Assembly (NCBI GenBank): GCA_937924405.1
Contig: CALDVW010000017.1
Span: 1-64,000, forward strand
Length of the DNA: 64,000 nucleotides
Reading direction: 5' to 3'
From: an uncultured Lysobacterales bacterium
GTDB taxonomy: Bacteria > Pseudomonadota > Gammaproteobacteria > Xanthomonadales > SZUA-36
Shown: piece by piece, positions 4,636-49,107 of the stretch
Layout: every line of letters begins with the position of its first letter
Numbering within the stretch: position 1 is the stretch's first letter
Program-made: the position numbers and the translations under genes
The notes under the pieces: model-generated
Database searches by the model: none
The model's input: only the letters and a program-made list of their open reading frames with translations
What the model was told of the DNA's origin: nothing

Positions 4636-4732
4636 CGTTATTGAAATGTATTATTTCGGGCGATTGGTTGCGTCCAAACACCAAATTGCTTCACAAGGTA
4701 AAATATCCGGATGTCTGAACGGAAAATACAAA

Positions 4733-7700
4733 ATGAGTCGACCCGCTGACCAGATTCCACAATCGAAAACAGAAGTGACCACGCCGTTACGTTTCGTGAC
4801 CGCCGCGTCACTGTTTGATGGCCACGATGCTGCCATCAATATCATGCGCCGCCTGATCCAGGCCCAGGGCGCAGAGGTGATTCACCTGGGACACAACCGC
4901 AGCGTGCTTGACATCGTCCGGGCCGCCATCCAGGAAGATGCTGATGCCATCGCGATTTCGTCCTACCAGGGCGGTCACATCGAGTTCTTCAAATACATGG
5001 TTGACTTGCTGAAAGAGCGTGGCTCGGATCACATCAGGGTGTTCGGGGGAGGTGGCGGAACCATCAGACCTGACGAGATTCGCGAACTGGAAGCTTATGG
5101 CATCGAGCGAATTTATCACCCGGATGACGGGATGGGCATGGGTCTTGTGGAAATGATTGAGGACGTGGTTAAGCGCACCATGGAAAGCCGCGTGCCCACT
5201 GAATTTCCTGGCCAGACCGATGTGACTGATTCGAAATCGATAGCCAACGTGATCTCGGCTCTGGAAGACGAGGTCTTTGGTGAAGCTGAACTGAAATTGA
5301 AACGCCGCGAATGGGAGGGCCGCTCCAGACAGGCGCCGGTGATTGGAATTACAGGCACCGGCGGGGCGGGAAAATCATCGGTCACCGATGAACTGCTGAA
5401 CCGCTTCACCCAGTGTTTTCCGGAAATGAAAATTGCGGTGCTCGCCGTTGACCCGACCCGCAGGCGTACCGGTGGCGCCCTGCTCGGTGACCGCATCCGT
5501 ATGAATTCGCTGCGCCATGAAAATGTCTACATGCGCAGCATGGCGACGAGACGCCAACATTTGGCAACATCGGCCATTTTGCAGGATGGCATCGCATTTC
5601 TTAAGTCAGCCGGGTTTGACCTGATCATTGTTGAAACAGCAGGCATAGGCCAGTCAGATTCCGAGATCGTCGATATGGTTGACTTTCCTGTCTACGTGAT
5701 GACCAGCGACTTCGGCGCCCAGAGTCAGCTCGAAAAAATCGATATGCTGGATTTTGCCGACCTGGTGGTGTTGAACAAGTTTGACAAGCGGGCAGCTGAG
5801 GATGCCCTGCGTGATGTCAGGAAGCAGTGGATGCGCAACCACCTCGCCTTTCATGCAAGCAACGAAGAAATTCCCGTGTACCCCACCATAGCCAGCCAGT
5901 TCAACGACCCCGGCATCACCTGGATGTTTGTTAATTTGTGCCGCTTATTGAGGGAGAAACTGGACCTGCCGGCTGAGAACTGGTCGCCCGATACGGAAAC
6001 ATCGCTGCGGGAACCCAAAGCGACGGTGCTGATTCCCGGCCAGCGCACCCGCTACCTGGCCGAAATAGCCGAGGCTGGAAGGACAATCAACGGGGATATC
6101 GTGCGGCAGGCCGAGGCCGCCAGTAAAGCCCAGAACTACTATGAATCCCTCAAAATACTGGGGGATGAACATCTTCCCGAGCCCTTTTCGAGATATGTCT
6201 CATTCGCCTTGAGGGATACCGCTGATGGGGCGGGCCCCGGCCGTGAAGCAGACCGTTCCCTGCTCCTTCTCCGTCAACGCTACGACAGCGCAATTGGTGA
6301 ACTGAGTGAAGATGCCGTCCAGTTGCTGAAATCCTGGCCGGAAAAGAAGGCCGGGTTACGCACTGAAAATTATACCTATGAGGTACGTGGCCGAGAAATT
6401 ACCGGTTCCAACTTCAAGGAATCCCTGAGCCGCCTGATGATTCCCAAGATCGGCATGCCAAGAGACGCTGATTGGGGCGGGCTGCTTTCCTTCCTGATGC
6501 GCGAAAATCTGCCGGGACACTACCCTTACACGGCCGGAGTTTTCCCCTATCGGCGCGCCGGCGAAGACCCCATCCGGATGTTTGCAGGTGAAGGCACACC
6601 TGAACGCACCAATCACCGCTTCCATCTGCTCGCGCATGGCCAGCCGTCCGTTCGTCTTAGTACAGCATTTGATTCCGTCACGCTGTATGGGGAGGACCCG
6701 CATACCCGTCCGGATATTTACGGCAAGGTTGGCAACTCCGGTGTCTCCATCGCGACGCTGGATGATATGAAAAAGCTGTATTCCGGTTTCGATCTGTGTG
6801 CGGCCAACACTTCGGTGTCGATGACCATCAATGGCCCGGCGCCCATGATACTGGCTTTTTTCATGAATGCGGCCATTGACCAGCAGGTCGAGTTGTATCT
6901 GCATAAGCACGGCAAGTGGGAGGAAGCCAAAAGGAAAATCGAAGCGTATTTCGAGGGCCGGGAGCAGCCTCGTTACCATGGCGAATTACCGGCTGGAAAT
7001 AGCGGCCTCGGCCTGGCTTTACTGGGCATCACAGGCGACAAACTGATTGATGCGGAGGTCTACGAAAAGATCAAAGCCAGGACGCTGACCCTGGTGCGTG
7101 GCACGGTACAGGCGGATATTCTCAAGGAAGACCAGGCCCAGAATACCTGTATTTTTTCCACCGAGTTCGCCATGCGCATGATGGGCGATATTCAGCAGTA
7201 TTTCGTTGATCAGGGCGTGCGAAATTTTTACAGCGTGTCGATCTCCGGCTATCACATTGCGGAAGCCGGCGCGAATCCGATCAGCCAGCTCGCATTTACC
7301 CTCAGCAACGGTTTTACCATTGTCGAGTACTACCTGGCGCGCGGCATGGAAATTGACCAGTTTGCGCCGAACCTGAGTTTCTTTTTCTCCAATGGTATGG
7401 ATCCCGAATACACTGTGATCGGCCGGGTGGCGAGAAGAATCTGGGCTCGCGCGATGCGTGAGAGATACGGCGCCAACCAGCGCAGCCAGATGCTGAAGTA
7501 CCACATCCAGACCAGCGGCAGGAGTCTGCACGCCCAGGAAATCCAGTTCAACGACATCCGCACCACACTGCAAGCCCTGTATGCGCTGTTTGACAACTGC
7601 AATAGTCTGCACACTAACGCTTACGATGAAGCGATTACAACGCCGACTGAAGAGAGTGTGCGCAGAGCGGTGGCAATCCAGATGATCATCAACAGGGAAT

Positions 7701-8197
7701 TGGGCCTGAACTTCTGTGAAAACCCCTGGCAGGGCAGTTTCATCGTGGACGAATTGACTGAGTTGGTAGAGGAGGCCGTCTACCAGGAGTTTGAAAAGAT
7801 TTCAGAGCGCGGTGGCGTGCTGGGTGCGATGGACACCATGTATCAGCGCAGCAAAATACAGGAAGAAAGCCTGTATTACGAAAGCATAAAGCATGATGGG
7901 ACACTGCCGATCGTTGGGGTCAATACATTTCTGCCGCCGGACGGGCATGGTGAAGTCGGGGAAATCGAACTGATGCGATCAACTGATCATGAGAAGGATC
8001 AGCAGGTCGCTTCGGTGGAGGCGTTTCGTGATGCTCACCGCGCGGAAGCCAGCACGGAACTGCTTGAGTTGCAAAAAGTGGCTCGTGAGAGAAACAATAC
8101 TTTCGAAGCGCTGATGGATGCTGCCAAAACCTGTTCACTCGGTTCGATGTCGCATTCCCTGTACGACGTCGGTGGTGAATATCGGCGGAATATGTAA
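4733..8197 (+). CDS. icmF: Fused isobutyryl-CoA mutase IcmF (B12-binding / G-protein / mutase)
   Basis: Adenosylcobalamin-dependent interconversion of isobutyryl-CoA and n-butyryl-CoA, and of similar short acyl-CoAs, in the cytoplasm. The 1154 residues are ordered as in known IcmF. An N-terminal B12-binding domain carries DGHDA (His31) as the lower-ligand motif. A MeaB-like GTPase chaperone has Walker A GTGGAGKSS at 208-216. A large TIM-barrel mutase domain runs from about 560 (FAGEGTPERTNHRFH, then NTSVSMTINGPAP). ATG 4733 was chosen because upstream in-frame codons add unconserved sequence. The ribosome binding site is weak. Isobutyryl- versus isovaleryl/pivalyl-CoA preference cannot be told by eye. 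Leucine dehydrogenase nearby supports a link to branched-chain acyl-CoA metabolism. Confidence 0.93.
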   Translation: MSRPADQIPQSKTEVTTPLRFVTAASLFDGHDAAINIMRRLIQAQGAEVIHLGHNRSVLDIVRAAIQEDADAIAISSYQGGHIEFFKYMVDLLKERGSDHIRVFGGGGGTIRPDEIRELEAYGIERIYHPDDGMGMGLVEMIEDVVKRTMESRVPTEFPGQTDVTDSKSIANVISALEDEVFGEAELKLKRREWEGRSRQAPVIGITGTGGAGKSSVTDELLNRFTQCFPEMKIAVLAVDPTRRRTGGALLGDRIRMNSLRHENVYMRSMATRRQHLATSAILQDGIAFLKSAGFDLIIVETAGIGQSDSEIVDMVDFPVYVMTSDFGAQSQLEKIDMLDFADLVVLNKFDKRAAEDALRDVRKQWMRNHLAFHASNEEIPVYPTIASQFNDPGITWMFVNLCRLLREKLDLPAENWSPDTETSLREPKATVLIPGQRTRYLAEIAEAGRTINGDIVRQAEAASKAQNYYESLKILGDEHLPEPFSRYVSFALRDTADGAGPGREADRSLLLLRQRYDSAIGELSEDAVQLLKSWPEKKAGLRTENYTYEVRGREITGSNFKESLSRLMIPKIGMPRDADWGGLLSFLMRENLPGHYPYTAGVFPYRRAGEDPIRMFAGEGTPERTNHRFHLLAHGQPSVRLSTAFDSVTLYGEDPHTRPDIYGKVGNSGVSIATLDDMKKLYSGFDLCAANTSVSMTINGPAPMILAFFMNAAIDQQVELYLHKHGKWEEAKRKIEAYFEGREQPRYHGELPAGNSGLGLALLGITGDKLIDAEVYEKIKARTLTLVRGTVQADILKEDQAQNTCIFSTEFAMRMMGDIQQYFVDQGVRNFYSVSISGYHIAEAGANPISQLAFTLSNGFTIVEYYLARGMEIDQFAPNLSFFFSNGMDPEYTVIGRVARRIWARAMRERYGANQRSQMLKYHIQTSGRSLHAQEIQFNDIRTTLQALYALFDNCNSLHTNAYDEAITTPTEESVRRAVAIQMIINRELGLNFCENPWQGSFIVDELTELVEEAVYQEFEKISERGGVLGAMDTMYQRSKIQEESLYYESIKHDGTLPIVGVNTFLPPDGHGEVGEIELMRSTDHEKDQQVASVEAFRDAHRAEASTELLELQKVARERNNTFEALMDAAKTCSLGSMSHSLYDVGGEYRRNM

Positions 8198-11413: not shown

Positions 11414-12736
11414 ATGGACCCGGTAACCCTGGCATTCTTGTTCGGTGGTCTCAGCGCAGCTTCCCTGCCGCTGGGAGCTGCATTGGGCATTTGGCTCAAT
11501 CCGGGGCTGCGATTAACGGCGGCGGTTATGGCTTTTGGCGCAGGCGCCTTGCTCTGTGCCCTGGCGCTGGAACTGGTGGTGCCCGCCCTGGCGCATTTCC
11601 CCGACGATCCCGCGGAAGGATTCAAGTGGTTGGCACTGGGTTCGATGATGGGATGCCTGTTGTTTATCGGCCTGGATCACTCTTTGTCTGGCATGGGCGG
11701 ATATCTGCGTAAACATTCAACCATTTCCTCCAGGTTGAAGCGCAGGAAGAAGCAACATTACCGGCAAATCCTGGACAAACTCTCGGTTCTGGACCTGATG
11801 ATCAGCCTGCCTCCTGACGAGATCCGCCGGGTGGTCAGTGATATCGAAAAGCGATTTTTTGAAGCAGGAGAAATCATCTGCCATGAAGAGGACCCTTGCG
11901 CCGCACTGTTCCTGATCGAATATGGCAGTGTTCGCATCCAGCATCATGGTGAAGAAGAGGAGCAGGGTTCACTGCCCGTGTTGAAAGCCGGAGAGGCTTT
12001 TGGTGGGTTGGCGTTGGTTACCGGCCTGTCTCCAATCGCCCGGGCGATCGCCGTTGAAGACACGGTCGTATGGGAAATCCACAAAGATGACTTCAACGAG
12101 GTCGTTGCAGTTTCTCCCAAACTGCAGCAAAACCTGGAGCAGATTGCAGAAAAACACAAGGCAGGTGAATTGAATGATGGTATTGATCCGGACCAGTCCC
12201 GCAGCTGGTTGCAGGCCGCCAGTCAGAACCTGGAATCTGAACTGGGAAAGCCGACTGAAGCAGAGATCATGCATGCCGCGCACGCCGCGAAAAAAGGCGG
12301 CAGCAATGTTGCCTTAGCCATCTGGCTGGGCATTGCGCTGGATGGAATACCTGAGTCGCTGATCATCGGCTCGACGATGGAAGGTTCTGCGGTCAGCCTG
12401 GCGCTGATAGGCGGTCTGTTTATCGCCAACCTGCCTGAGAGCATGTCGAGCGCCGTTGTTATGAAAAAACACGGCAGCCCCGCCTGGCTCATTGTCGGTA
12501 TGTGGATGTCGTTGATGATTATGACGGCCGTCGGCGCAGCCTTTGGAAACATTTTCATCGCGGATGCACCGTTGCATCTGCGGGCGCTGCTGGAAGGGCT
12601 CGCCGCCGGCGCGATGCTGGCCATGATCGCCCAGACCATGCTGCCCGAGGCCTATGACCACGGCGGCTGGCTGACCGGACTGATGACGGTAATCGGATTC
12701 CTGACGGCAATCTGGATGGGCACGCTGGGCCACTAG
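11414..12736 (+). CDS. ZIP-like metal transporter interrupted by a cyclic-nucleotide-binding-like domain
   Basis: A 440-residue membrane protein in three parts. Residues 1-95 hold three TM helices resembling the start of ZIP transporters. Residues 113-245 form a Crp/cNMP-type domain (FFEAGEIICHEEDP, then LKAGEAFGGLALV). Residues 297-440 hold about five TM helices with ZIP-like motifs DGIPESL (310-316) and ANLPES (339-344). The classical ZIP TM4/TM5 metal histidines (HNxPEG, HExPHE) are replaced by Asp and Asn while Pro-Glu is kept. In the cNMP pocket the usual FGE is FGG (Gly198), although an Arg follows (Arg210). The ligand may therefore not be cAMP. A role in regulated divalent-metal transport is inferred. 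It is 140 bp upstream of the cDPG-synthetase-like gene on the same strand. Confidence 0.75.
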   Translation: MDPVTLAFLFGGLSAASLPLGAALGIWLNPGLRLTAAVMAFGAGALLCALALELVVPALAHFPDDPAEGFKWLALGSMMGCLLFIGLDHSLSGMGGYLRKHSTISSRLKRRKKQHYRQILDKLSVLDLMISLPPDEIRRVVSDIEKRFFEAGEIICHEEDPCAALFLIEYGSVRIQHHGEEEEQGSLPVLKAGEAFGGLALVTGLSPIARAIAVEDTVVWEIHKDDFNEVVAVSPKLQQNLEQIAEKHKAGELNDGIDPDQSRSWLQAASQNLESELGKPTEAEIMHAAHAAKKGGSNVALAIWLGIALDGIPESLIIGSTMEGSAVSLALIGGLFIANLPESMSSAVVMKKHGSPAWLIVGMWMSLMIMTAVGAAFGNIFIADAPLHLRALLEGLAAGAMLAMIAQTMLPEAYDHGGWLTGLMTVIGFLTAIWMGTLGH

Positions 12737-12876: not shown

Positions 12877-14202
12877 ATGAAGAAGGAATTCAACTGTATT
12901 GTCATGGGCGCCGCCGGGCGAGACTTTCACGTTTATCTGTCGTTCCTGCGCGGTAACGAAATTTTCCGCGTTAAAGCATTCACAGCTACCCAGATCCCAT
13001 TCATTGACGAACGCGGATTTCCGCAGTCTCTGGCCGGCCCTGGCTATGATGAAGATATCCCGATATTCGATGAATCAGAACTGCCGGAACTGATTGACCG
13101 CTATGCTATCGACTTCGTATTTTTCGCCTACAGTGACGTACCGCATGCGGATATCATGCACAAGGCCAGTCTGGTGCAGGCAGCCGGAGCGAGTTTCGTG
13201 ATGATAGGCCCTGACCATACCCAGCTGCCATCGAAAAAGCCGGTGGTGAGCATCACGGCGACCCGCACCGGCGCCGGCAAGAGCCCGCTGACCCAGTGGC
13301 TGGCGCGCCTGCTGACCGATAAGGGCAAACGCGTTGCCGTCATCCGTCACCCCATGCCTTACGGCAACCTGGAGATGCAGCGGGTACAGCGCTTTGCATC
13401 CACCGAAGACCTGGTAAAGCATGAATGTACTATCGAGGAGCGCGAGGAATACGAGCCCTATGTAGACATGGGAATCCCGATATACGCCGGTGTTGATTAC
13501 CAGGCCATTCTGGAGGAATCCTCCAAAGAGGCGGACATCGTGCTGTGGGACGGGGGCAATAATGACTTCTCATTCATCAAGCCGGATCTGGATATTGTCG
13601 TGGTTGACTCGCTTCGTGCCGGGCATGAAATTGACTATTATCCCGGTGAAGTGAATTTCCGGCGCGCAGACGTGCTGGTGATTGGTAAAGTCGGCTCGGC
13701 TGAATCCGGCGCCGTGGATGGCATCCTCGAACGGGCACAGGCCCTTAACCCGGCTGCGTCTCTTTGTACCTCGGACCTGGAAATCGATGTGGATCAGCCG
13801 GGCCTCATCAAGGGACAGCGGGTTTTGGTCATCGAAGACGGCCCGACGGTGACACACGGCGGCATGTCTTTCGGCGCGGGAACCGTGGCGGCAGAACGCT
13901 ATGGTGCGATTGCAGTGGATCCCAGGCCGTATGTCGCAGGCACCATACGGGATACGTTCGAATCCTACCCGCACATGGAGCGGATCCTTCCGGCGATGGG
14001 ATATTCAGAAGCGCAAAGGGACTCGCTGGCTCAGACCATAAATGACTGCTGTGCAGCGCAGGATGTCGCCTGCGTGATCGACGCGAGCCCGGCCCGGCTG
14101 GACCTCATGCTGGACCTCGAAGTGCCGTTGGTAAGAGTTACTTATCGATTTGTCCAGAAGAGTGGTGAACCGTTGGAAAACCTGGTGATCGGTTTACTCT
14201 GA
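12877..14202 (+). CDS. Cyclic 2,3-diphosphoglycerate synthetase-like P-loop protein (COG2403 type)
   Basis: A 441-residue cytoplasmic protein. The N-terminus is Rossmann-like (IVMGAAGRDFHVY, 8-20), then AYSDVPH near 84-90. A P-loop ATRTGAGKSP at 128-137 opens a kinase/GTPase-like domain with LWDGGNNDFSF and VVVDSLRAGHE. This matches the family usually annotated as predicted GTPase or cyclic 2,3-diphosphoglycerate synthetase, which would close 2,3-diphosphoglycerate into the cyclic diphosphate using ATP. That activity is established only for methanogen enzymes. Here it is suggested mainly by 2-phosphoglycerate kinase and archaeal-type mutase genes 32 kb away. It could instead be a GTPase of unknown role. 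Confidence 0.7.
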   Translation: MKKEFNCIVMGAAGRDFHVYLSFLRGNEIFRVKAFTATQIPFIDERGFPQSLAGPGYDEDIPIFDESELPELIDRYAIDFVFFAYSDVPHADIMHKASLVQAAGASFVMIGPDHTQLPSKKPVVSITATRTGAGKSPLTQWLARLLTDKGKRVAVIRHPMPYGNLEMQRVQRFASTEDLVKHECTIEEREEYEPYVDMGIPIYAGVDYQAILEESSKEADIVLWDGGNNDFSFIKPDLDIVVVDSLRAGHEIDYYPGEVNFRRADVLVIGKVGSAESGAVDGILERAQALNPAASLCTSDLEIDVDQPGLIKGQRVLVIEDGPTVTHGGMSFGAGTVAAERYGAIAVDPRPYVAGTIRDTFESYPHMERILPAMGYSEAQRDSLAQTINDCCAAQDVACVIDASPARLDLMLDLEVPLVRVTYRFVQKSGEPLENLVIGLL

Positions 14203-23900: not shown

Positions 23901-24106
23901 GGTGATGGTTTGATGATGAATTCGATACCATACTAAACGGAATTATTCTAGCAAAGGAGTCATCCTTCCCACCTTGCCCGTGTGGCCCTTTTGCCACCGC
24001 GCATCAAAGCGCAATAATAGATTTTCACCGCCTGCCGGCAGGTTGCAGAGTTGCAGTCGGGGTTTTCATGTGGTCTTATCCTGCAAACCCGCGGGGATGG
24101 ACAGGC

Positions 24107-25447
24107 ATGGCCGACTGGCCGACACGATTGACTTCACTGGACCGTTTTTTCAACCGGTTTTCACACTTGCATGCGGGTGAAGGGCGCAGTGTTCTGGCCT
24201 TCTTCACCTATGCCTTGCTGATGATGGTGAGCTATTACATCCTCAAAACCATCCGCGAGCCACTCCTGCTGACTGGATCTTCAGCCGAGTTGAAAAGTTA
24301 CGCCTATGCAGTGACGGCCCTGTTGTTACTTTTTATCGTTCCGCTTTACAGTCTCGTTTTTCGCCACACCGGCAAGCAGCAATTGACGCGTTATATCACC
24401 GGCTTTTTTCTGCTTAATCTGTTTCTGTTCTACCTGGCTGGCCGCGCGGGCATGGATGTCGGATTTGCCTATTATGTATGGGTGGGCATTTTCAACGTGA
24501 TGATCACTGCGCAATTCTGGGCTTTCGCCGCCGACAGTTATAACGTCAAGAGTGGGAAACGTCTTTTCCCAATCATCATGGTGGGAGCCACGCTCGGGAG
24601 CCTGGTGGCTCCGCAATTGAGTGGCGCCTTTTTTCCATCGATTGGTCCGTGGACATTGTTGTTGTTGGCGATGGCGTTGCTGGCACTGACCATTCCCTGT
24701 GTCGGTTGGGCTCGTGCCGCGGTTCCACCCGGCTCACGCAGCCCTGCCGACCAACCCGGAGACAAAGAAGACGGGGGTTTTTTCGGGGGCATCTCGCTGG
24801 TTCTGACCGATCGTTACCTGTTCCTGCTGGCGTTATTGATTTTATTGCTGAATTGGGTCAACACCACCGGAGAATATATCCTGGCTGAACTGGTTGTGCG
24901 TTACGCTGATGCGGCGGTGCTGGCCAACCCGGGAGTGAAAAAAGCAGACTTTATTGCAGCTTTCTATGGAAACTTCTTTTTTATCGTCAACCTGTTGACC
25001 CTGCTGGCTCAGGTATTCCTGGTAGCCCGTGTCATCCGCTGGATCGGAGTACGGGGTGCGGTGCTGGTGCTGCCTCTGATCACCCTGATCGGATATGGCC
25101 TGGTGGCATTTATTCCTATCTTCAGCATGATCCGGCTGGTGAAAGTCTTTGAAAACTCAACCGACTATTCCTTGATGAACACCACTCGGCATGCCCTGTA
25201 CCTGCCACTGACTGCAGCGGAAAAGTACGAGGGAAAAACTACGATTGAAGCATTTTTCTGGCGATTCGGAGACCTGGCCCAGGCAGGTGCCATCTATGTT
25301 GGTCTTAACTGGTTCAGTTTCGATGTTCCACAGTTCGCCCTGGTCAATATGGTGCTGGCCCTGATCTGGCTCGTGGTCGCCTGGCAGGTTGCGAGGAATT
25401 ATGGATCCAAGCACCACGTGGTAGAAGACAACGCGTCGCCGCCGTAA
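24107..25447 (+). CDS. ATP/ADP translocase-like (NTP/NDP exchange family) membrane protein
   Basis: A 446-residue integral membrane protein with about 11-12 TM helices. TYALLMMVSYYILKTIREPL near the N-terminus and FAADSYNVKSGKRLFP-GATLGS in the middle resemble the Tlc/Npt carriers of rickettsiae and plastids and their shorter homologues in free-living bacteria. Nucleotide exchange is proven only for the parasite and plastid members. Here the substrate is unknown. ATG 24107 has GGGGA 9 nt upstream. ATG 24068 is an alternative adding 13 residues. The YfcC-like gene starts 10 nt downstream, suggesting an operon. Confidence 0.72.
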   Translation: MADWPTRLTSLDRFFNRFSHLHAGEGRSVLAFFTYALLMMVSYYILKTIREPLLLTGSSAELKSYAYAVTALLLLFIVPLYSLVFRHTGKQQLTRYITGFFLLNLFLFYLAGRAGMDVGFAYYVWVGIFNVMITAQFWAFAADSYNVKSGKRLFPIIMVGATLGSLVAPQLSGAFFPSIGPWTLLLLAMALLALTIPCVGWARAAVPPGSRSPADQPGDKEDGGFFGGISLVLTDRYLFLLALLILLLNWVNTTGEYILAELVVRYADAAVLANPGVKKADFIAAFYGNFFFIVNLLTLLAQVFLVARVIRWIGVRGAVLVLPLITLIGYGLVAFIPIFSMIRLVKVFENSTDYSLMNTTRHALYLPLTAAEKYEGKTTIEAFFWRFGDLAQAGAIYVGLNWFSFDVPQFALVNMVLALIWLVVAWQVARNYGSKHHVVEDNASPP

Positions 25448-32734: not shown

Positions 32735-32805
32735 TTTTACTCGATTCCTTCCCCATAATGGCATTAAAATACCATCTTTTCCCATTCCGGAAACAAGGAA
32801 ATCCC

Positions 32806-34272
32806 GTGCCCAAAAATAGCAAACTCAAGATATTCCTTGCCTGTTCGGAATATACACCCCTGGCCAAGACCGGCGGTCTTGCCGACGTTTCTGCGGCGCT
32901 GTCTTTCTTTTTCGATTCCGAGGGGCACGACATCCGCGTGCTGATACCGTTTTATGCGTCCATCGATCTCGCCGGGCTGGAAATCGAAATTGTTCCCGGT
33001 TTGCAGGAGCTCACGATGACACTGGGGGACCGTGTCTTCAATTACTGGATTGTTCGCGCCCGCTCGGAAGGGCCGGGACCGGATATTTACCTGTTGCAGT
33101 GTCCCGAGCTGTATGGGGGTGACGAAATCTATTCGGGGCCGGATGAGCACCTCCGGTTTATCCTGCTTTCCAGGGCGGCGATAGAAATGTGTCAGCAACA
33201 GGCGTTTGCACCGGACATCTTTCATTGTCACGACTGGCATACGGCCCTGGTTCCCGTATATCTCAAGACCCTGTATTCGTGGGACCGGATGTTCAGCGCA
33301 ACGAAATCCGTGTTGACGCTTCACAACATCGGGTACCAGGGAGTGTTTGGTGCCAGTGTTCTTGACGATATGGGGCTGTCCGATTCCGGCGGCGAGCTGG
33401 ACCAGGAGGACTTGTCGCATGACCGGATCAACTTTCTGAAGACGGGTGTGATCCATGCTGATCTGCTGACCACTGTTAGCCCGACCTATGCGCGGGAAAT
33501 TCTCGACCCGGAGTACGGAATGGGGCTGGAGTCGTACCTGAGCCAGCGGGTCGAATCCGTGGTCGGCATCCTCAATGGTGTGGATTACGCTGAATGGAAT
33601 CCCGAAAGTGATCCGCTGATCCCGTTTACCTTCTCCTCCAGGGAGTTGTCCGAAAAAGAGAAGAACAAGCAGGCCCTGATGGAAGAAATGGGGCTTGAAT
33701 ACGTATTTGACCGGCCGCTTGCAGGTGTCGTAACCCGGCTTACCTACCAGAAAGGTATTGATCTGATGCAGCACGTGCTGCCTGATCTGTTGGCAGCCCG
33801 GGATTTGGCCGTGGTTGTCCTGGGCAGCGGTGAGGAAGAATACGAACAATTCTTTCAGTGGCTACAATCGGAATTCCCCGGGCGGGTCGGTTTTTACCAG
33901 GGGTTCAACAACCAGCTCGCCCACCGAATTGAAGCAGGAAGCGACCTGTTCCTGATGCCGTCACGCTATGAACCCTGTGGGCTGAACCAGATGTACAGCC
34001 TGCGCTACGGTACCGTGCCGGTCGTGCGCGCGACCGGCGGCCTGGCCGATTCAGTACAGCACTTCGATCCTGGCAGTGGACTGGGCACAGGCGTGGTGTT
34101 CCATGATTATGACGCCAACGGACTGCGCTGGGCGCTGAACACGGCCCTGGATTTGTACTCAAACAAGAACGCCTGGTGCCGGATGGTATCCAACGGAATG
34201 GCGAAAGACTACTCCTGGAACGAGCAGGGAAAGATCTACATAGAACGTTTTAAGCGCCTGATTGACTCCTGA
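32806..34272 (+). CDS. glgA: Glycogen synthase (ADP-glucose)
   Basis: GT5 glycosyltransferase that elongates glycogen from ADP-glucose. The 488-residue protein has the KTGGLADV nucleotide-sugar motif (Lys21) at the N-terminus, HNIGYQG, a catalytic RLTYQKGID and the C-terminal E-x7-E type segment SRYEPCGLNQMYSLRYG. The GTG at 32806 has AAGGA 6 nt upstream and gives the family N-terminus. An in-frame ATG at 32758 is less likely. It faces glgC (convergent), with about 180 bp between them that contains no gene. Confidence 0.93.
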   Translation: MPKNSKLKIFLACSEYTPLAKTGGLADVSAALSFFFDSEGHDIRVLIPFYASIDLAGLEIEIVPGLQELTMTLGDRVFNYWIVRARSEGPGPDIYLLQCPELYGGDEIYSGPDEHLRFILLSRAAIEMCQQQAFAPDIFHCHDWHTALVPVYLKTLYSWDRMFSATKSVLTLHNIGYQGVFGASVLDDMGLSDSGGELDQEDLSHDRINFLKTGVIHADLLTTVSPTYAREILDPEYGMGLESYLSQRVESVVGILNGVDYAEWNPESDPLIPFTFSSRELSEKEKNKQALMEEMGLEYVFDRPLAGVVTRLTYQKGIDLMQHVLPDLLAARDLAVVVLGSGEEEYEQFFQWLQSEFPGRVGFYQGFNNQLAHRIEAGSDLFLMPSRYEPCGLNQMYSLRYGTVPVVRATGGLADSVQHFDPGSGLGTGVVFHDYDANGLRWALNTALDLYSNKNAWCRMVSNGMAKDYSWNEQGKIYIERFKRLIDS

Positions 34273-34452
34273 TCGCCAGGCAAGCTCCAGCATCGGCGAT
34301 ATGTCCTGGTAATTCAGGATCATCGCCCCGGTTGGTCACTTTATTGGGCTCATCCCGCCGGTCGAAGCCTTCACACCAGCATCAGGGTCTGTCGCAGTTC
34401 GATGCAACACCTAACGCTTTATTTGAAAGTGGAGAATGTTGCCAGGGCAAGC

Positions 34453-35700
34453 TCAACTCAGCATGTGGGGGCAAACCAGTACGACGCCTTCTGCAGTCAC
34501 TTTGAAGCGCGCCGCATCCGCGGCATGGTCCTCACCGATAACGGTGTTGTCCGGAATCACGCAACGTTTATCAATGATGGCTCTCGTGATACGGCAGTTC
34601 CTGCCGATTTTGCTCTGCGGCAAGACAACGGCCTGGATTACCTCGCTGCCCTCGTCAACGGTAACGCTGGAAAACAACAGTGATTGCCTTACATAGGCAC
34701 CAGAGACTATACAGCCGCCGGAGACCATCGAGTTTGTCGCCATCCCCACCCGGCCCGAGTCATCCAGCACGAATTTGGCGGGCGGGAGTTGCTCCTGGTA
34801 AGTCCAGATCGGCCATTCGGAATCGTACAGGTTGAGTTCCGGGTGGACAAAAACCAGTTCCAGATTCGCCCGGAAATAGGCATCCACCGTTCCCACATCA
34901 CGCCAATAGCTCTGGGCGCGCGTCTTGACGTCATGAAACGGATAGGCGAACACACGAAATTTATCGATGCTGTCCGGGATGATATTCTTGCCAAAGTCAT
35001 GCTCGGAGTCCGGATTGGCAGCATCCGCCTCCAGTATGTCGATCAGGAAGTCGCTGTTGAATACGTAGATTCCCATGGATGCCATCGCCGCTTCCGGATT
35101 TCCCGGAACGGGTTGCGGATTGACCGGCTTTTCGTGGAAATGCCTAACCCGGTTTTCTCCATCGATCGTCATGACACCAAATCCCGTGGCTTCATGCAGC
35201 GGCACCTGTATCACACCAACCGTAATGTCGGCCTTATTCTCAGTATGAGAAGCGATCATTGGACCATAGTCCATTTTGTAAATATGATCTCCCGCCAGAA
35301 TCAGGACGTGTTCAGGGCCGTGCTCGCGAATCTCGTTGATGTTCTGATAAATCGAGTCGGCTGTGCCCTTGTACCAGTGCTCTCCCATCTGTTGCTGGGC
35401 AGGAATGATCTGAATGAATTCGCCGAATTCACCGCGCAGATAGCCCCAACCCCGGTGGATGTGTTGAATCAGTGAATGTGCTTTGTATTGGGTGAGGATG
35501 AAGATCTGCCGGATTCCCGAATTGACACAGTTGGATAACGGGAAATCAATGATCCTGAACTTGCCACCGAAGGGGGTAGCCGGCTTGGCGCGTATCGCCG
35601 TCAGATCTTCCAGTCTCGAGCCTCTGCCACCGGCCATGATCATGGCCATTGTGCTGCGTGTCAGGCGACTGACGAATCGGCCGGATTTCTTAGGATTCAT
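34453..35700 (-). CDS. glgC: Glucose-1-phosphate adenylyltransferase
   Basis: Makes ADP-glucose from glucose-1-phosphate and ATP, the committed step of bacterial glycogen synthesis. The 415 residues show the nucleotide-binding GGRGSRL (24-30), the [19 protein letters not shown] block, GTADSIYQN, the glucose-1-P site (FHEKP) and a C-terminal left-handed beta-helix ([21 protein letters not shown]). Allosteric control by glycolytic intermediates is known for the family. It is divergent from glgB and shares its upstream region. Confidence 0.95.
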
Positions 35701-35760
35701 GGACGTGCTCCCGCGTTGACTGTGCTACATTCATGATACGTTGTTATTTGTGACATTCCA

Positions 35761-37964
<2,204 letters not shown>

Positions 37965-37977
<13 letters not shown>

Positions 37978-40406
37978 ACATGAAGCGCAGGTTTTGAGTG
38001 CCAGATTTCCCGGTCGTAGGACCGAATGGTCCGGTCGGATGAAAACCAGCCCACATTGGCCGTGTTGAGTGCGGCCGAGCGAAACCAGCGTTGCCTGTCA
38101 CGGTAGGCGGCGCCAACGTCTCGTTGCCTGGCGAGGTAGTCGCTGAAATCTGCCGCCAGCATGAAAAAGTCATTGTGATAGAGCTCATCGAGCAAGGGCT
38201 TGAAGCGCTCCTTGTCGCCATTGGAGAACACCCCTTCGGCAATGTCGAGTAACGCTGCTTCCAGCCGGGGATTTTCCTCGATGATGTGCATTGGTTGATA
38301 GTCCTGTTGGCGGCGGGCCGTAACCTGCTCCGCAGTCAGTCCGAAAATGAAGATGTTTTCCTCGCCAACGTGTTGCATGATCTCGATATTCGCTCCATCC
38401 AGCGTGCCGATGGTCAGTGCGCCATTGAGGGCGAGCTTCATGTTTCCCGTGCCGGAGGCCTCCATGCCTGCCGTTGATATCTGTTCTGAGAGATCCGCGC
38501 CCGGAATGATGATTTCCGCCCGGGTCACGTTGTAGTTCGGGACGTACACCACCTTCAGCCGGTCTCCAATGACGGGGTCATTGTTTACTTTTTCGGCTAT
38601 ATCATTGATCAGTTTAATGATGAGCTTGGCCGTGTAGTAACTCGGCGCGGCTTTGCCACTGAATATTTTCACGACCGGCAACCAGTCGGCATCTGGGTTG
38701 GCCAGTATGGCCTGGTAACGGGCTACGATTTGCAGCGCGTTCAGCAATTGCCGCTTGTATTCATGAATGCGTTTGATCTGAACATCAAACAGGGCATCAG
38801 GATCCACCGAGATTCCCGAGTGTTGCCGGATTTCTTCGCCCAGGATTTCCTTGTTTTTTCTCTTCGCCCTGGCAAATGCCTCGAGAAACGCACTATCGTC
38901 GACGTGCTGATTGAGGTTTTGTAACTGGTCGAGATCAGCTACCCATCCATCTCCGATCGCGGCGGTGATCAAGCCCGATAATTCCGGATTGCAGTTATAC
39001 AACCAGCGGCGCGGTGTGACCCCGTTGGTCATATTGACGATTCGGTCAGGAAAAACTTTGTGCAGATCGCTAAACACTGTCTGGGCCATCAGATCAGTAT
39101 GCAGTTCTGAAACGCCATTGACCTTATGGCTGCCAATAAAGGCCAGGTTGCCCATCCTTACCGAGCCACCGTTGCCATCGTGGTAATCCAGCGCACAGAC
39201 ATTTTCGGGTTTCACGTCTACGCCGCTGCCGTTGATTTCCTTGATGAAAAAACGGTCGATCCGGTCGATAATCTGGAGGTGCCGGGGCAGAACCTTTTTG
39301 AACAGGTCGATCGGCCAGCGTTCCAGCGCCTCGGGCAACAATGTGTGGTTGGTGTAAGAAATGCATTCGCGCGTGATGCGGAATGCCTCCTTCATTTTCA
39401 AACCATGCTCGTCCACCAGCAAGCGCATCAATTCCGGAACCGCAATGGCCGGATGAGTGTCATTCAACTGGATCGCTGCATGATCGGGTAGGGCGTGCAG
39501 ATTGGCGTGGGTGCTCAGGTATCGCCGCACCAGGTCCTGCAGTGAGGCCGAGGTGAAAAAATACTCCTGCTTCAGGCGCAGTTCCCGTCCCTGCGGCGTT
39601 GAATCATCCGGATACAGGACCCGCGACAGGGTTTCTGCCAACACCTCGTGCTGAGCGGCCTCGAGGTAGTTGCCCGCGTTAAATTGCGACAGGTCAAAAG
39701 TCTGTGCCGGCTTGGCTGACCAGAGACGAAGCGTATTGACGTGTGCGGCTTTCCAGCCCGGGATGGCAGTGTCGTTGCCGATTGCGATCACCTGCTCCAT
39801 CGGATGCCAGCAACGGCCATCAGGCGCATTCGGGTCGACGGTTCCGCCAAAGGGCACGGGGTAGCGCGATTCGGACCGATTGAGTTCCCAGGGGTTCCCG
39901 CCCTGGATCAGCCATTCTTCAGCCTCTTCGATTTGCCATCCTTCAGCAATGTGCTGGCGGAACAGGCCGTGCTCGTAGCGGATTCCATAGCCGTAGGCAG
40001 CGATTCCCAGTGTAGACATGGAGTCCATGAAACAGGCGGCCAGGCGGCCCAGGCCACCGTTACCCAGGGCTGCATCGGGTTCTTCCTCAAGGATTTCATC
40101 CAGGTCGATGCCCAGGTCGTCCAGGGCAGCCCGGCAGACATCCACCATGCCCAGATTCAGCATGGTGTCGGCCAGCAGGCGCCCGATCAGGAACTCCATG
40201 GACAGGTAATAAACCCGCTTAACATCCGACTCGTATACCCGCTTGGTAGTAGCCATCCACCGGTCCATCAGGCGTTGCCGTACCGCAAGGGTCAGAGCGA
40301 CGCACCAGTCTCTTGGTACCGCGTAATCAGTGTCCTTGCCGACGGAATAGACCAGGCGCTTGAGAATGCTTCTTTTCAGGTCCTCCTTTTCGAGAATGGC
40401 TACCAT
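37965..40406 (-). CDS. glgP: Glycogen/starch/alpha-glucan phosphorylase
   Basis: GT35 phosphorylase releasing glucose-1-phosphate from glycogen. The 813-residue protein has the N-terminal YYLSMEFLIGR, GNGGLGRLAACF, and the PLP-lysine motif EASGTGNMKLALNGAL, followed by TLDGANIEI. It is the last gene of a tight leftward operon: its ATG lies 3 nt after the CBS-protein stop, itself preceded by PII-like and two DUF1538 genes. This places glycogen breakdown under the same transcript as a putative nucleotide-sensing module. Confidence 0.95.
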
Positions 40407-44881: not shown

Positions 44882-46405
44882 TCATTCGGCCAGGGCATTT
44901 TCCATGGCGTCGCAAACCGCCTTGAGCACCTTGATACGCCCGTAGGGTTTGTTTTCATTTTCCACCAGCACCCAGGGTGATTTCCTGACGGAAGTCTGCT
45001 GGATCATATCGTGGGCGGCCAGGGCGTACTCATCCCAGCGCTCACGATTGCGCCAGTCTTCGTCAGACAGTTTCCAGCGCTTGTGGGGTGTCTCTTCGCG
45101 TGCCTTGAAGCGTCGCAATTGCTCGGCCTTGCTGATATGCATCCAGAATTTGAGCAGGATAATGCCGTGCTCTATCAGCTGGTCCTCGAAATCATTAATC
45201 TCGCCAAACGCCCGGCGCCATTCGTCATCGCCGGCGAAGCGCTCGATTCGCTCAACCAGCACCCGGCCATACCAGCTGCGGTCATAAATGGTCATTTTGC
45301 CGGCCCGCGGGACACAGTTCCAGAATCGCCACAGGTAATGGTGGGCATTCTCGATATCGGTGGGTGCTGAAAACGGGTAAACCTTGTAAAACCGGGCATC
45401 CAGGGCGCCGGTGATCTGCCTGATGGCCCCACCTTTTCCACTGGCGTCGGGTCCTTCAAAAACCAGCGTCGTGGAAACTTTCCTGCGGGCTGCCAATTGC
45501 TGCAACCCGGCCAGGCGGGCCTGGTAAACGGCAAGTTCTTTACGATACTTCTTTTTATCCAGTTTGAGTGACAGGTCGAGCCCGTCCATGATGGTCTTGG
45601 TTTTTATGTCGTTGCCGGTTTCCTCTTCTGACTCGACCTCCCGGTCTGTAAACTGCTTGCGCATTTCACCAAGATATTTCTGCCGATATTGTTCGCTCAT
45701 CAGGTGACGCTCCAGCGTATGCTGGAATATTTCTCCTACCTTGAGGCTGCGGTAGTTGAGATCTTCCCCTTCGATGATTTCCCAGGGCGCGTGACCCGTG
45801 TTGGTATAGCTGATGATCCGTTCGGCCGCTTCGATAAATTTGTCGTACAGTTTCCAGTGCTCCCAGTCCTCGGGCAACATCCTCCAGCTTCTCAGGGGGT
45901 CATTCTCAAGTGATTCCAGTCTGGATTTCTGGACATCCCGGCTGATGTGCATCCAGAACTTCAGCACCAGGGCGCCATCGTCCGCCAAATCTTTTTCGAA
46001 ATTGTTGATGCGATCCAGTGAATGCATGAAGTCGACTTCATCGCTTTTGCCAAACACGAAGTCCAGCAATGGCCGGGAATAACGGCCGCTCATGTACAAG
46101 CCAATCTGACCTTTCGGTGGCAGATGGCGCCAGAATCGCCAGAATGTAGGCCTTTCATTCTCCTCATCGGAAGGTTCTGTGTAGGCATGGGTCACAATCC
46201 AGCGGGCGTCCATCCAGCGGTTGAAAAGATTGACGGACGTACCTTTGCCTGCACCCCGGACACCAGCAAAATCTACGATGACAGGGAAATTGCCTTCCTT
46301 GCGCAGGCGTTGTTGCAAAGCGAGCAGGTTCTCCCACAACGGGAGTTCCTTTTGCTTGTATTCGTGTTTGGAAACTTTTTGTCCCAATTCCGCAGTCTGG
46401 AACAT
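44882..46405 (-). CDS. pap: Two-domain PPK2 (polyphosphate:AMP phosphotransferase)
   Basis: The 507-residue protein has two tandem PPK2 kinase domains. Domain 1 (about 20-250) has a degenerate Walker A, GVRGAGKGT (48-56), in which the family Asp is replaced by Arg, and lacks the YDRSWYGR lid motif (it reads YMSGRYSRP). Domain 2 (about 275-505) keeps GPDASGKGG (318-326) and YDRSWYGRVLVER and is probably the catalytic one. Such class II PPK2s phosphorylate AMP to ADP with polyphosphate. It is divergent from 2-phosphoglycerate kinase, 181 bp away, and the FGase-like gene follows 19 nt downstream. Confidence 0.9.
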   Translation of the reverse strand: MFQTAELGQKVSKHEYKQKELPLWENLLALQQRLRKEGNFPVIVDFAGVRGAGKGTSVNLFNRWMDARWIVTHAYTEPSDEENERPTFWRFWRHLPPKGQIGLYMSGRYSRPLLDFVFGKSDEVDFMHSLDRINNFEKDLADDGALVLKFWMHISRDVQKSRLESLENDPLRSWRMLPEDWEHWKLYDKFIEAAERIISYTNTGHAPWEIIEGEDLNYRSLKVGEIFQHTLERHLMSEQYRQKYLGEMRKQFTDREVESEEETGNDIKTKTIMDGLDLSLKLDKKKYRKELAVYQARLAGLQQLAARRKVSTTLVFEGPDASGKGGAIRQITGALDARFYKVYPFSAPTDIENAHHYLWRFWNCVPRAGKMTIYDRSWYGRVLVERIERFAGDDEWRRAFGEINDFEDQLIEHGIILLKFWMHISKAEQLRRFKAREETPHKRWKLSDEDWRNRERWDEYALAAHDMIQQTSVRKSPWVLVENENKPYGRIKVLKAVCDAMENALAE

Positions 46406-46586: not shown

Positions 46587-47840
46587 TTGAAAACATTCGT
46601 CATCAATGAACAGGAAAGTACGCGGATTCCGTTTCTGCGCGGAATCCTGATACGCAGTCTGCTGGATGCCGGCCTGGACTTCGATGAAGCACTCGATTTG
46701 GCCACCCGGGTGCGGGATGACCTGGATGACGTTACGGAAATTTCATCCGATCAAATCCGGCACAAGGTTCATCGACTACTGGAAGAAAGCGGCCACCTGG
46801 GGGCATTGGAACCTTACCGGCTGCCACTCGTCGCGCCGGCCAGGATCCAGGTTGCGAGCCTGAGTGGCACAGTCAGCTCGTTTTCCCGGGCCAAGCACGA
46901 ACGGTATCTCCAGGCCAGCGGGATGAAAGCTGAAAAAGCCGAACGAACGACCGTTCTGATTTACGATCATTTGCTGGCTGCTGGTATATCCTCGATCACG
47001 ACATGCCAGCTGGGCTTCCTGACCTGGTTATGCCTGAAGCAGGAAGTGTCCAAAAAAGCTGCAAAACGTTACCTGGTGTGGTCAGAGTATCAGCGCAGCG
47101 CCAGACCCCTGGCCTTGCTGATTTGCGGTACGGTTGGATCCGGAAAAAGTACTGTCGCAACCGAGATCGCCCACCTGCTCGAGATCGTACGAATTCAGTC
47201 AACGGATATGCTGCGTGAAGTTATGCGTATGATGATGCCGAGCCGGCTTCTTCCAGTTCTCCACAAGTCTTCCTTCAACGCCTGGGAAGCCCTGTCCCTC
47301 CAGGACATGGACGATCGCGACTGGGATCAACTCGTGGCAGATGGCTACCGCAGCCAGGCGGACCTGCTGGCAGTTCCCTGTGAAGCAGTGCTACAGCGTG
47401 CTGAAGAAGAAAGCGTTCCGATCATCCTGGAAGGTGTGCATGCCCATCCCAATCTCATGGAGCGAGGCCAGACGGACTCGGACGCCATCATGGTGCATGC
47501 AACGCTGGCCGTCCTGAAAACCAAGGAGCTCAAGTCCCGCCTGCGCGGACGCGGTGTCGAGGTACCTCTGCGGCGGGCCAAGCGTTACCTGAACAAGATC
47601 GATGCCGTGTGGAGTCTGCAGTCCTTCCTGTTATCTGAAGCCGACCGCTTCGATGTGCCCATCATCACCAATCACGACAAGGATAAAGCAGTTTTGCAGA
47701 TCATTTTGCAGGTTAACTTTGAGTTGTCCAGGCACTTCACCGGGTCGCCCCTGGATGTATTTGGATCGGTTGTCGGCACGGGAAATGATAGTTTTGAAAA
47801 AGAACCGTGGCAAAAGCTCGTTGCCGAATTCAGAGACTGA
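46587..47840 (+). CDS. 2-phosphoglycerate kinase (archaeal type) with duplicated ATP-cone region
   Basis: Would phosphorylate 2-phosphoglycerate to 2,3-diphosphoglycerate with ATP. Residues 10-70 form an ATP-cone-like domain (IPFLRGILIRSLLDAGLD). Residues about 98-170 (FSRAKHERYLQASGMK ... AAKRYLVWSEYQRS) look like a second, more divergent cone. The P-loop GTVGSGKST (181-189), STDMLREVMR, LPVLHKSSFNAWEAL and ILEGVHAHPNLM match archaeal 2-phosphoglycerate kinases, which at about 300 residues have a single cone. The start is TTG 46587, the only codon giving the cone N-terminus. The next gene is the archaeal-type mutase, 28 nt downstream, so an operon is nearly certain. Confidence 0.82.
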   Translation: MKTFVINEQESTRIPFLRGILIRSLLDAGLDFDEALDLATRVRDDLDDVTEISSDQIRHKVHRLLEESGHLGALEPYRLPLVAPARIQVASLSGTVSSFSRAKHERYLQASGMKAEKAERTTVLIYDHLLAAGISSITTCQLGFLTWLCLKQEVSKKAAKRYLVWSEYQRSARPLALLICGTVGSGKSTVATEIAHLLEIVRIQSTDMLREVMRMMMPSRLLPVLHKSSFNAWEALSLQDMDDRDWDQLVADGYRSQADLLAVPCEAVLQRAEEESVPIILEGVHAHPNLMERGQTDSDAIMVHATLAVLKTKELKSRLRGRGVEVPLRRAKRYLNKIDAVWSLQSFLLSEADRFDVPIITNHDKDKAVLQIILQVNFELSRHFTGSPLDVFGSVVGTGNDSFEKEPWQKLVAEFRD

Positions 47841-47868
47841 GAGCAATCTTTCCACCCAGGGATTTACA

Positions 47869-49107
47869 TTGTCTGATTTTTACCGAAAATGTGTAGTGTT
47901 GATTATCGATGGCCTCGGCGATTTGCCGGTTTCCGGGTTGGATGATCAGACGCCTCTCGAAGCGGCCCACACACCTGTTCTGAATCGCCTGGCGGCCTCG
48001 GGGCTGTACGGGCTGGTCGACCCGATCGGCCGTGGTGAAGTGCCAAATACCCATTCGGGTTGTGGCGTACTTCTGGGGGTATTGCCCGGTGAAACCAGCC
48101 GGATCAGGCGCGGTCCGATCGAAGCCTCCGGCGCTGGCCTTGCGCTGGAACCGGGTGATATTGCCGTGCGGGCGAATTTCGCAACCCTGGAAAACCATGT
48201 CGATGGCCTGTTGGTATCCGACAGACGGGCTGGCCGGATCACAAGCGGCACCGATCAGTTGGCGGCGGTGCTGACCGATGTCGACCTCGGAGAAGGCGTG
48301 ACCGCCAGCCTTCAGCCGACGGACCAGCATCGCGGCGTACTGGTGCTGTCCGGACCTGGCCTCGACCAGGCTGTCAGTGACACTGACCCGGGCGACCACG
48401 GCGATACGGCGCTTGTTCAGACCTGCCAGCCAAAGCGGGCAGGCGCTGAGAAAACCGCTGAAAAAATAAACCTGTTTGTCGCAGAAGCGCATCGCAGGCT
48501 GAACAAACACCCGCTCAACGAGGAAAGAGTCCGCAGTGGGAAGCTTCCCGCGAACGGGGTGCTGACGCGCGGAGCGGGAGAAATTTTCAGACTGGAACCC
48601 ATATTTCAGCCCAACGGCCTTAATGTGGCTGTCGTGGCCGGCTGCAATACGGTTCTTGGCTTGGCGCGAATCCTGGGATTCGAGGCAGTGACCGATCCGC
48701 GCTTTACCGCGTCTTTCGATACCGATCTCGATGCCAAAATGAGGGCAGTTTTAGCGGCACTGGATAGCAAGCAGCTAGTCTATCTTCACGTCAAGGCACC
48801 GGATTTGTTCGCCCATGACCTGAATCCTGTAGCCAAACGTGATTTTCTCGAGCGACTGGATAAGTCACTGCAAATACTCTACGACAGCGGGGCAATAATC
48901 GCGTTGGCAGCAGATCACACGACAGACAGTAACACCGGGGTTCATACCGCTGATCCGGTACCGGCACTGATTTACGACCCCAGGCAAGTGCCAGGCGAAG
49001 AACCCACGCCGGTTAATTTCGGTGAAGCAGCTTGCCGCAACGGCAGTATGCCGCGCCGCCAGAGCCACGATTTCCTGCTGCAATTGGTCCGCATGATGGA
49101 AAACTAA
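47869..49107 (+). CDS. Archaeal-type phosphoglycerate mutase-like protein (cofactor-independent, alkaline phosphatase superfamily)
   Basis: A 412-residue homologue of ApgM, which interconverts 3- and 2-phosphoglycerate. Metal and catalytic positions are recognisable: Asp14 (LIIDGLGD), TPLEAAHTPVLNRLAASG, a nucleophile candidate Ser63 (PNTHSGCGVLLG), KAPDLFAHD (Asp312, His316), AADHTTDS (Asp349, His350) and VHTADPVP (His359). The segment around Ser63 differs from the usual GSDTSH/AHLALLGYDP pattern, so this is a divergent member and might be a related phosphotransferase. The TTG at 47869 is preceded by AGGGA; no ATG fits. It overlaps the convergent cysteine-synthase-like gene by 4 nt. Confidence 0.75.
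   Translation: MSDFYRKCVVLIIDGLGDLPVSGLDDQTPLEAAHTPVLNRLAASGLYGLVDPIGRGEVPNTHSGCGVLLGVLPGETSRIRRGPIEASGAGLALEPGDIAVRANFATLENHVDGLLVSDRRAGRITSGTDQLAAVLTDVDLGEGVTASLQPTDQHRGVLVLSGPGLDQAVSDTDPGDHGDTALVQTCQPKRAGAEKTAEKINLFVAEAHRRLNKHPLNEERVRSGKLPANGVLTRGAGEIFRLEPIFQPNGLNVAVVAGCNTVLGLARILGFEAVTDPRFTASFDTDLDAKMRAVLAALDSKQLVYLHVKAPDLFAHDLNPVAKRDFLERLDKSLQILYDSGAIIALAADHTTDSNTGVHTADPVPALIYDPRQVPGEEPTPVNFGEAACRNGSMPRRQSHDFLLQLVRMMEN

Follow-up and report, generated by a model that had tools for sequence, protein, structure and literature searches.

2,3-Bisphosphoglycerate (2,3-BPG) has known functions as the cofactor of mutases, as an effector in red cells, and as the precursor of an archaeal osmolyte. 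Lys-145 and Arg-146 in the P-loop of Methanothermus cyclic 2,3-diphosphoglycerate (cDPG) synthetase hold 2,3-DPG (PMC10690619), and synthetase annotations have served as the basis for inferring cDPG in genome studies of thermophilic archaea (e.g. PMC7511516 and PMC7819960). The families of 2-phosphoglycerate (2PG) kinase (2PGK; COG2074) and of the archaeal-type phosphoglycerate mutase (ApgM; COG3635) are common to Thermus, Deinococcus, and archaea (PMC1274311), and a 2010 survey recorded the archaeal-type mutase (iPGM) in 0 of 184 Gammaproteobacteria (PMC2964296). In plants, the rice 2PGK homolog LPA1 controls phytate and total P (PMC4844318). Our literature search yielded no paper linking 2PGK to bacterial phosphate genes.

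Here, we analyzed a stretch of 64,000 nucleotides (hereafter, the window; positions 1 to 64,000 of contig CALDVW010000017.1, assembly GCA_937924405.1) from an uncultured Lysobacterales bacterium. A sequence-only reading of this DNA had proposed that a 2PGK-type gene, an archaeal-type mutase gene, and a gene for a P-loop protein, taken to be cDPG synthetase, provide a complete route from 3-phosphoglycerate (3PG) to cDPG in one neighborhood, beside polyphosphate and glycogen genes. We report that the kinase–mutase pair is linked to phosphate genes and probably does not share a pathway with the P-loop protein.

Table 1. Positions of the features discussed in the text, numbered from the first letter of the window
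Feature	Position	Strand	Remarks
2PGK-like protein	46587..47840	+	417 aa; TTG start behind ggaag; NF003259, E 5.6e-67
First ATP-cone-like domain of the kinase	46587..46826	+	Residues 1-80; additional relative to archaeal 2PGK
Second ATP-cone-like domain of the kinase	46848..47096	+	About residues 88-170; PF03477
Kinase P-loop GTVGSGKS	47127..47150	+	Residues 181-188; G181, G186, K187, and S188 invariant in alignment A2
Archaeal-type phosphoglycerate mutase (ApgM)	47869..49107	+	412 aa; TTG start behind aggga; TIGR00306, E 1.5e-93
Thr-61 of the mutase, column of the archaeal catalytic Ser	48049..48051	+	xTHxG replaces SDTSH; alignment to 3idd
Polyphosphate:AMP phosphotransferase (PAP)	44882..46405	-	Two PPK2 domains; TIGR03708, 647.6 bits, above cut-off; divergent from the pair
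Glycogen genes	32758-40406		In the window
P-loop protein	12877..14202	+	441 aa; "cDPG synthetase" of the sequence-only reading; carbamate-kinase-associated family
P-loop RTGAGKS	13264..13284	+	Residues 130-136; invariant in 47/47 relatives except the Ala position

Results

A 2PGK-like gene and an archaeal-type mutase gene form a conserved pair

In the family scan, the kinase matched NF003259 with 226 bits, under the equivalog cut-off of 343 bits, and in our kinase alignment (A2) it shared 27–29% identity with the 2PGKs of archaeal and actinobacterial origin. It has its P-loop and the motifs QSTDMLREVMR and EGVHxxP in common with the 2PGK of Thermococcus (L186), a protein that scores above this cut-off, and all the motifs of the archaeal members (P-loop, TDxxRExxR, and EGxHxxP) were present. 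The second ATP-cone-like domain matched PF03477 with 24.9 bits, slightly under the cut-off of 25.8, and this model matched 16 of the 18 members of the kinase family (best E 7.5e-14). A profile–profile comparison of the first domain with the second using hhalign gave a probability of 98.5 (E 2e-15), and the first domain was missing from the archaeal and actinobacterial rows of A2. These results show that two ATP-cone-like domains stand in tandem in the kinase, as against a single one in archaeal 2PGK. In other enzymes, ATP cones are sensors of ATP or dATP. Substrates vary among such kinases, as shown by mevalonate-3-phosphate 5-kinase, which is homologous to 2PGK; the motifs listed above suggest that the window kinase phosphorylates 2PG with ATP to give 2,3-BPG.

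The mutase scored 314 bits against TIGR00306 (cut-off, 320), with profile positions 1–400 of 403 covered, and exceeded the cut-offs of PF10143 and PF01676. Its best solved relatives were 3idd, 3kd8, and 2zkt, with E values as low as 2e-62. Asp-14, Asp-312, His-316, Asp-349, His-350, and His-359 were invariant in the mutase alignment (A3), as was the DRRAGR motif, and the metal ligands are thus kept. Thr-61 was likewise invariant in A3, with Thr at the nucleophile column in all 21 sequences aligned, and the family scan additionally returned a match to the phosphonoformyl transferase PhpG. The retained residues are consistent with ApgM interconverting 3PG and 2PG. Since a separate 517-aa GpmI-like ORF was found in the same genome, ApgM is probably not required for glycolysis. 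The scores of the kinase and the mutase are clear yet under curated cut-offs, so that both are divergent members of their families.

The two genes are co-directional, with a purine-rich site ahead of each TTG start and 28 bp between the kinase stop and the mutase start, and their order is kept in at least 14 relatives showing 49–79% identity, in agreement with the operon that had been proposed. The steps from 3PG through 2PG to 2,3-BPG are also plausible from the conserved kinase motifs and the ApgM metal ligands and DRRAGR motif. The genes for 2PGK and ApgM adjoin not only in these relatives but also in several other families of Gammaproteobacteria; ApgM is absent from several 2PGK loci. Of 398 genomes searched for 2PGK elsewhere in the phylum, only the window's own matched at E 1e-40. 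A single-protein query found no viral relative, and a plasmid search gave one distant Deinococcus match. Separately, five genomes of the class survey (G192, G234, G302, G328, and G398) have two 2PGK-like genes each, of which one is more divergent (31–37% identity to the window kinase) and in several cases adjoins CorC/CNNM-like genes.

The pair is linked to phosphate genes and probably belongs to the phosphate and polyphosphate machinery

The polyphosphate and glycogen genes named by the sequence-only reading are indeed present. The divergent PAP–2PGK layout recurred in most of the 14 or more relatives with the pair, and glycogen phosphorylase was encoded near it in several. The phosphate link proved much stronger than was visible to the sequence-only reading. 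Pst operons accompany the pair in relatives. In four loci of the same family as the window (L184, L222, L225, and L227), the genes ran in one direction in the order 2PGK–ApgM–PstS–PhoU–PstC–PstA–PstB, and a further same-family locus (L230) read 2PGK–ApgM–PstS–PhoU up to the point where the contig ends. Two other families showed the arrangements PstS–PhoU–PstCAB–2PGK–ApgM (L181) and 2PGK–PstS–PhoU–PstCAB (L161).

Pst, PhoU, PiT, polyphosphate-kinase, or exopolyphosphatase genes, marker families picked after part of the kinase loci had been viewed, were present within about 8 kb in 17 of 22 gammaproteobacterial kinase loci, whereas none of the 14 control segments taken from these genomes had any (Fisher p 3e-6), with L222, L225, L227, and L230, fetched after the marker choice, forming a partial hold-out that is from the same family and hence not independent. 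The same markers were present in 1 of 80 loci of the P-loop protein family. The surroundings of 2PGK genes in other gammaproteobacterial families included Pst, PhoU, PiT, Na/Pi transporters, PhoR, Ppk1, PPK2, and Ppx, identities that were Pfam-confirmed for representative genes of these regions. A Pho box with 13 of 14 consensus bases was located upstream of the L161 kinase; none above chance was found upstream of the window pair. There was also no Pst operon beside the pair in the window, and pstC of this genome is on another contig (C43). Members of the window's genus lack pst genes next to the pair and have a cysteine-synthase-like gene after it, with the phosphotransferase retained. Together, these results show that the kinase–mutase pair is phosphate-linked, and it is probably part of the cell's phosphate and polyphosphate machinery.

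The P-loop protein is a remote relative of cDPG synthetase in the company of carbamate kinase

The P-loop protein did not match the NCBIfam cDPG synthetase models, and its sole phmmer match in the PDB was a cDPG synthetase (E 0.008). A 47-sequence profile of its family matched cDPG synthetase with E 3e-12. The AlphaFold model of the protein (pLDDT 93.7) had Methanothermus cDPG synthetase (8oru) as its top full-length match (Z 22.2, residues 2–441; 369 aligned, rmsd 12.3, 15% identity), with LpxK as the next-best fold match (Z 19.2). By these matches, the protein is a true yet remote superfamily relative of cDPG synthetase that has the two-domain order with a C-terminal P-loop domain; the P-loop identity given by the sequence-only reading stood. 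Comparison of the active sites spoke against the same activity: in the profile alignment, Lys-145 and Arg-146 of the Methanothermus enzyme align with Thr-131 and Gly-132, which are invariant in 47/47 sequences. The nucleotide lysine of the P-loop is retained in the family. The 47 sequences had a mean column identity of 65%. We found no specific NCBIfam or Pfam model for this family, which we take to be COG2403, and a literature search under that presumed designation found no paper.

Members of the family, about 50% identical, occur widely among bacteria and archaea, in mesophiles and thermophiles alike. Carbamate kinase (ArcC) adjoined the P-loop gene in 12 of 80 named loci, and ornithine carbamoyltransferase (OTC) did so in others; of 9 further loci from Gammaproteobacteria, 5 likewise had carbamate kinase next to it, and in a Halieaceae record the two genes overlap by a few bases. 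ArcC or OTC adjoined the gene in many phyla, and 2PGK or ApgM was never beside it among the loci fetched. Named genomes carrying the P-loop gene numbered 50; ArcC was found in 41 of them and 2PGK in 5. In a survey of 369 Gammaproteobacteria (P-loop gene in 10, 2PGK in 20, and ArcC in 24), the P-loop gene was accompanied by ArcC in 9 of 10 genomes (Fisher p 4e-11) and by 2PGK in 2 of 10 (p 0.10). Among 41 relatives, the P-loop gene and 2PGK occurred together in 12, singly in 4 and 2, and were both absent from 23; the corresponding counts with ArcC (11/1/3/26) were better correlated, and the three exceptions were genomes less than 90% complete. The within-family correlation with 2PGK is best explained by shared descent.

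In the window's genome, ArcC is on contig C104 between OTC-like and aspartate carbamoyltransferase-like ORFs (identified by eye). A search for a closer cDPG synthetase elsewhere in this genome returned the same P-loop protein only, weakly (9sxb fragments, E 0.008). Since the P-loop gene is 32 kb from the pair in the window and on another contig in relatives, the proposal that all three genes share one neighborhood carries little meaning. We judge the P-loop protein to be a different enzyme, going with carbamate kinase and ornithine carbamoyltransferase and standing outside the pathway of the pair.

Several other genes were recorded. A protein of about 685 aa (L039:3395-5449, with homologs in 8 other loci), for which there was no Pfam or NCBIfam match, accompanies the P-loop protein, ArcC, and OTC in several loci. 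A ZIP metal transporter with a cyclic-nucleotide-binding domain is encoded at 11414-12736 of the window, and in several relatives a homolog of it adjoins the P-loop gene. The window also encodes an IcmF-like protein (4646-8197) in which B12-binding, MeaB-like GTPase, and methylmalonyl-CoA-mutase-type parts are fused, and a protein with a TLC ATP/ADP transporter-like domain (PF03219, C-terminal part only; 24068-25447), which is unusual for a free-living bacterium.

Discussion

We assign a probability of roughly one half to the reading that the pair is a phosphate-linked, ATP-gated module leading from 3PG to 2,3-BPG, which stores or buffers phosphate and makes no cDPG. In this scheme, ApgM would interconvert 3PG and 2PG, and the kinase would convert 2PG and ATP to 2,3-BPG. 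The route would end there, with no cDPG produced because the 12.9-kb P-loop protein appears to be a different enzyme found in carbamate kinase and ornithine carbamoyltransferase company. ATP would switch the kinase through its tandem ATP cones, and 2,3-BPG may be a soluble phosphate reserve or an ATP/phosphate overflow valve that works beside polyphosphate. We hypothesize a storage, overflow, or signal role for the pair, in keeping with a need of cells to curb excess phosphate and ATP (PMC11389368). More tentatively, at somewhat less than even odds, some Gammaproteobacteria may have a phosphate-regulated, ATP-sensing route from 3PG to 2,3-BPG, with genes that lie in the pst operon or descend from it, and may use 2,3-BPG as a soluble phosphate reserve, an ATP-overflow product, or a phosphate signal alongside polyphosphate.

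The main rival to the 2,3-BPG reading is that the kinase acts in phosphate homeostasis on a different small phosphorylated compound, such as an inositol phosphate, and that ApgM is a related phosphotransferase. Rice LPA1, a 2PGK homolog, is a suspected inositol monophosphate kinase (PMC4844318), and the sub-cut-off score of the window kinase, its 27–29% identity to archaeal and actinobacterial 2PGKs, the several kinase loci without ApgM, and an ApgM subfamily that has Thr at the nucleophile column and also matches PhpG all fit this alternative; however, the kinase is repeatedly paired with a phosphoglycerate mutase, a potential supplier of 2PG, and its core motifs are conserved with archaeal 2PGK. 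We consider another substrate a serious but rather unlikely explanation. It is improbable that the pair makes 2,3-BPG solely to supply a 2,3-BPG-dependent mutase or a histidine phosphatase with its cofactor, given that the genome has a GpmI-like cofactor-independent mutase and that phosphate genes are the consistent neighbors, even though a gpmA-like gene lies near L161 and a histidine-phosphatase gene adjoins the kinase in L176.

The complete pathway from 3PG to cDPG, in which the 12.9-kb protein would be cDPG synthetase, was rejected and seems highly improbable to us, with the cyclizing step left unsupported. The top full-length fold match (Z 22.2), the profile match (E 3e-12), and the co-occurrence of the P-loop gene with 2PGK in the 41 relatives favor it, but these stand against the 15% identity and the invariant Thr/Gly in place of the substrate residues, the class-wide and named-genome counts in which ArcC (9/10 and 41/50) rather than 2PGK (2/10 and 5/50) goes with the P-loop gene, and unlinked neighborhoods in which that gene has ArcC or OTC beside it in many phyla and never 2PGK or ApgM. 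The case is also a caution that the name "cDPG synthetase" can be given to members of a protein family linked to carbamate kinase.

If the phosphate-linked 2,3-BPG module is real, the presence of the kinase–mutase pair in a Pst operon would put 2,3-BPG into bacterial phosphate homeostasis and would offer a tractable model of the puzzling part that 2PGK homologs, such as rice LPA1, play in phosphorus storage.

With respect to known systems, cDPG synthetase (8ORK/8ORU and 9SXB) resembles the 12.9-kb protein in two-domain order and P-loop fold, whereas the family of the latter differs in its 15% identity, in Thr/Gly for Lys-145/Arg-146, in its carbamate kinase link, and in its wide spread among mesophilic and thermophilic bacteria and archaea. 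The occurrence of 2PGK and an archaeal-type mutase in bacteria has been known since 2005 from Thermus and Deinococcus, for which shared presence only was given, without a phosphate link (PMC1274311). Plant LPA1 is likewise a 2PGK homolog tied to total phosphorus storage, a parallel drawn from the literature alone, but is eukaryotic and has been proposed to be an inositol monophosphate kinase. The 2PGK of Methanothermus fervidus (COG2074, NF003259) has the same order of an ATP-cone domain followed by a P-loop kinase and the motifs (S/G)TD(M/T)xRE(V/I)MR and EG(V/I)HxxP in common with the window kinase, which differs from it in having a sub-cut-off score, no cDPG synthetase partner, a second N-terminal ATP-cone-like domain, and a Pst/polyphosphate context.
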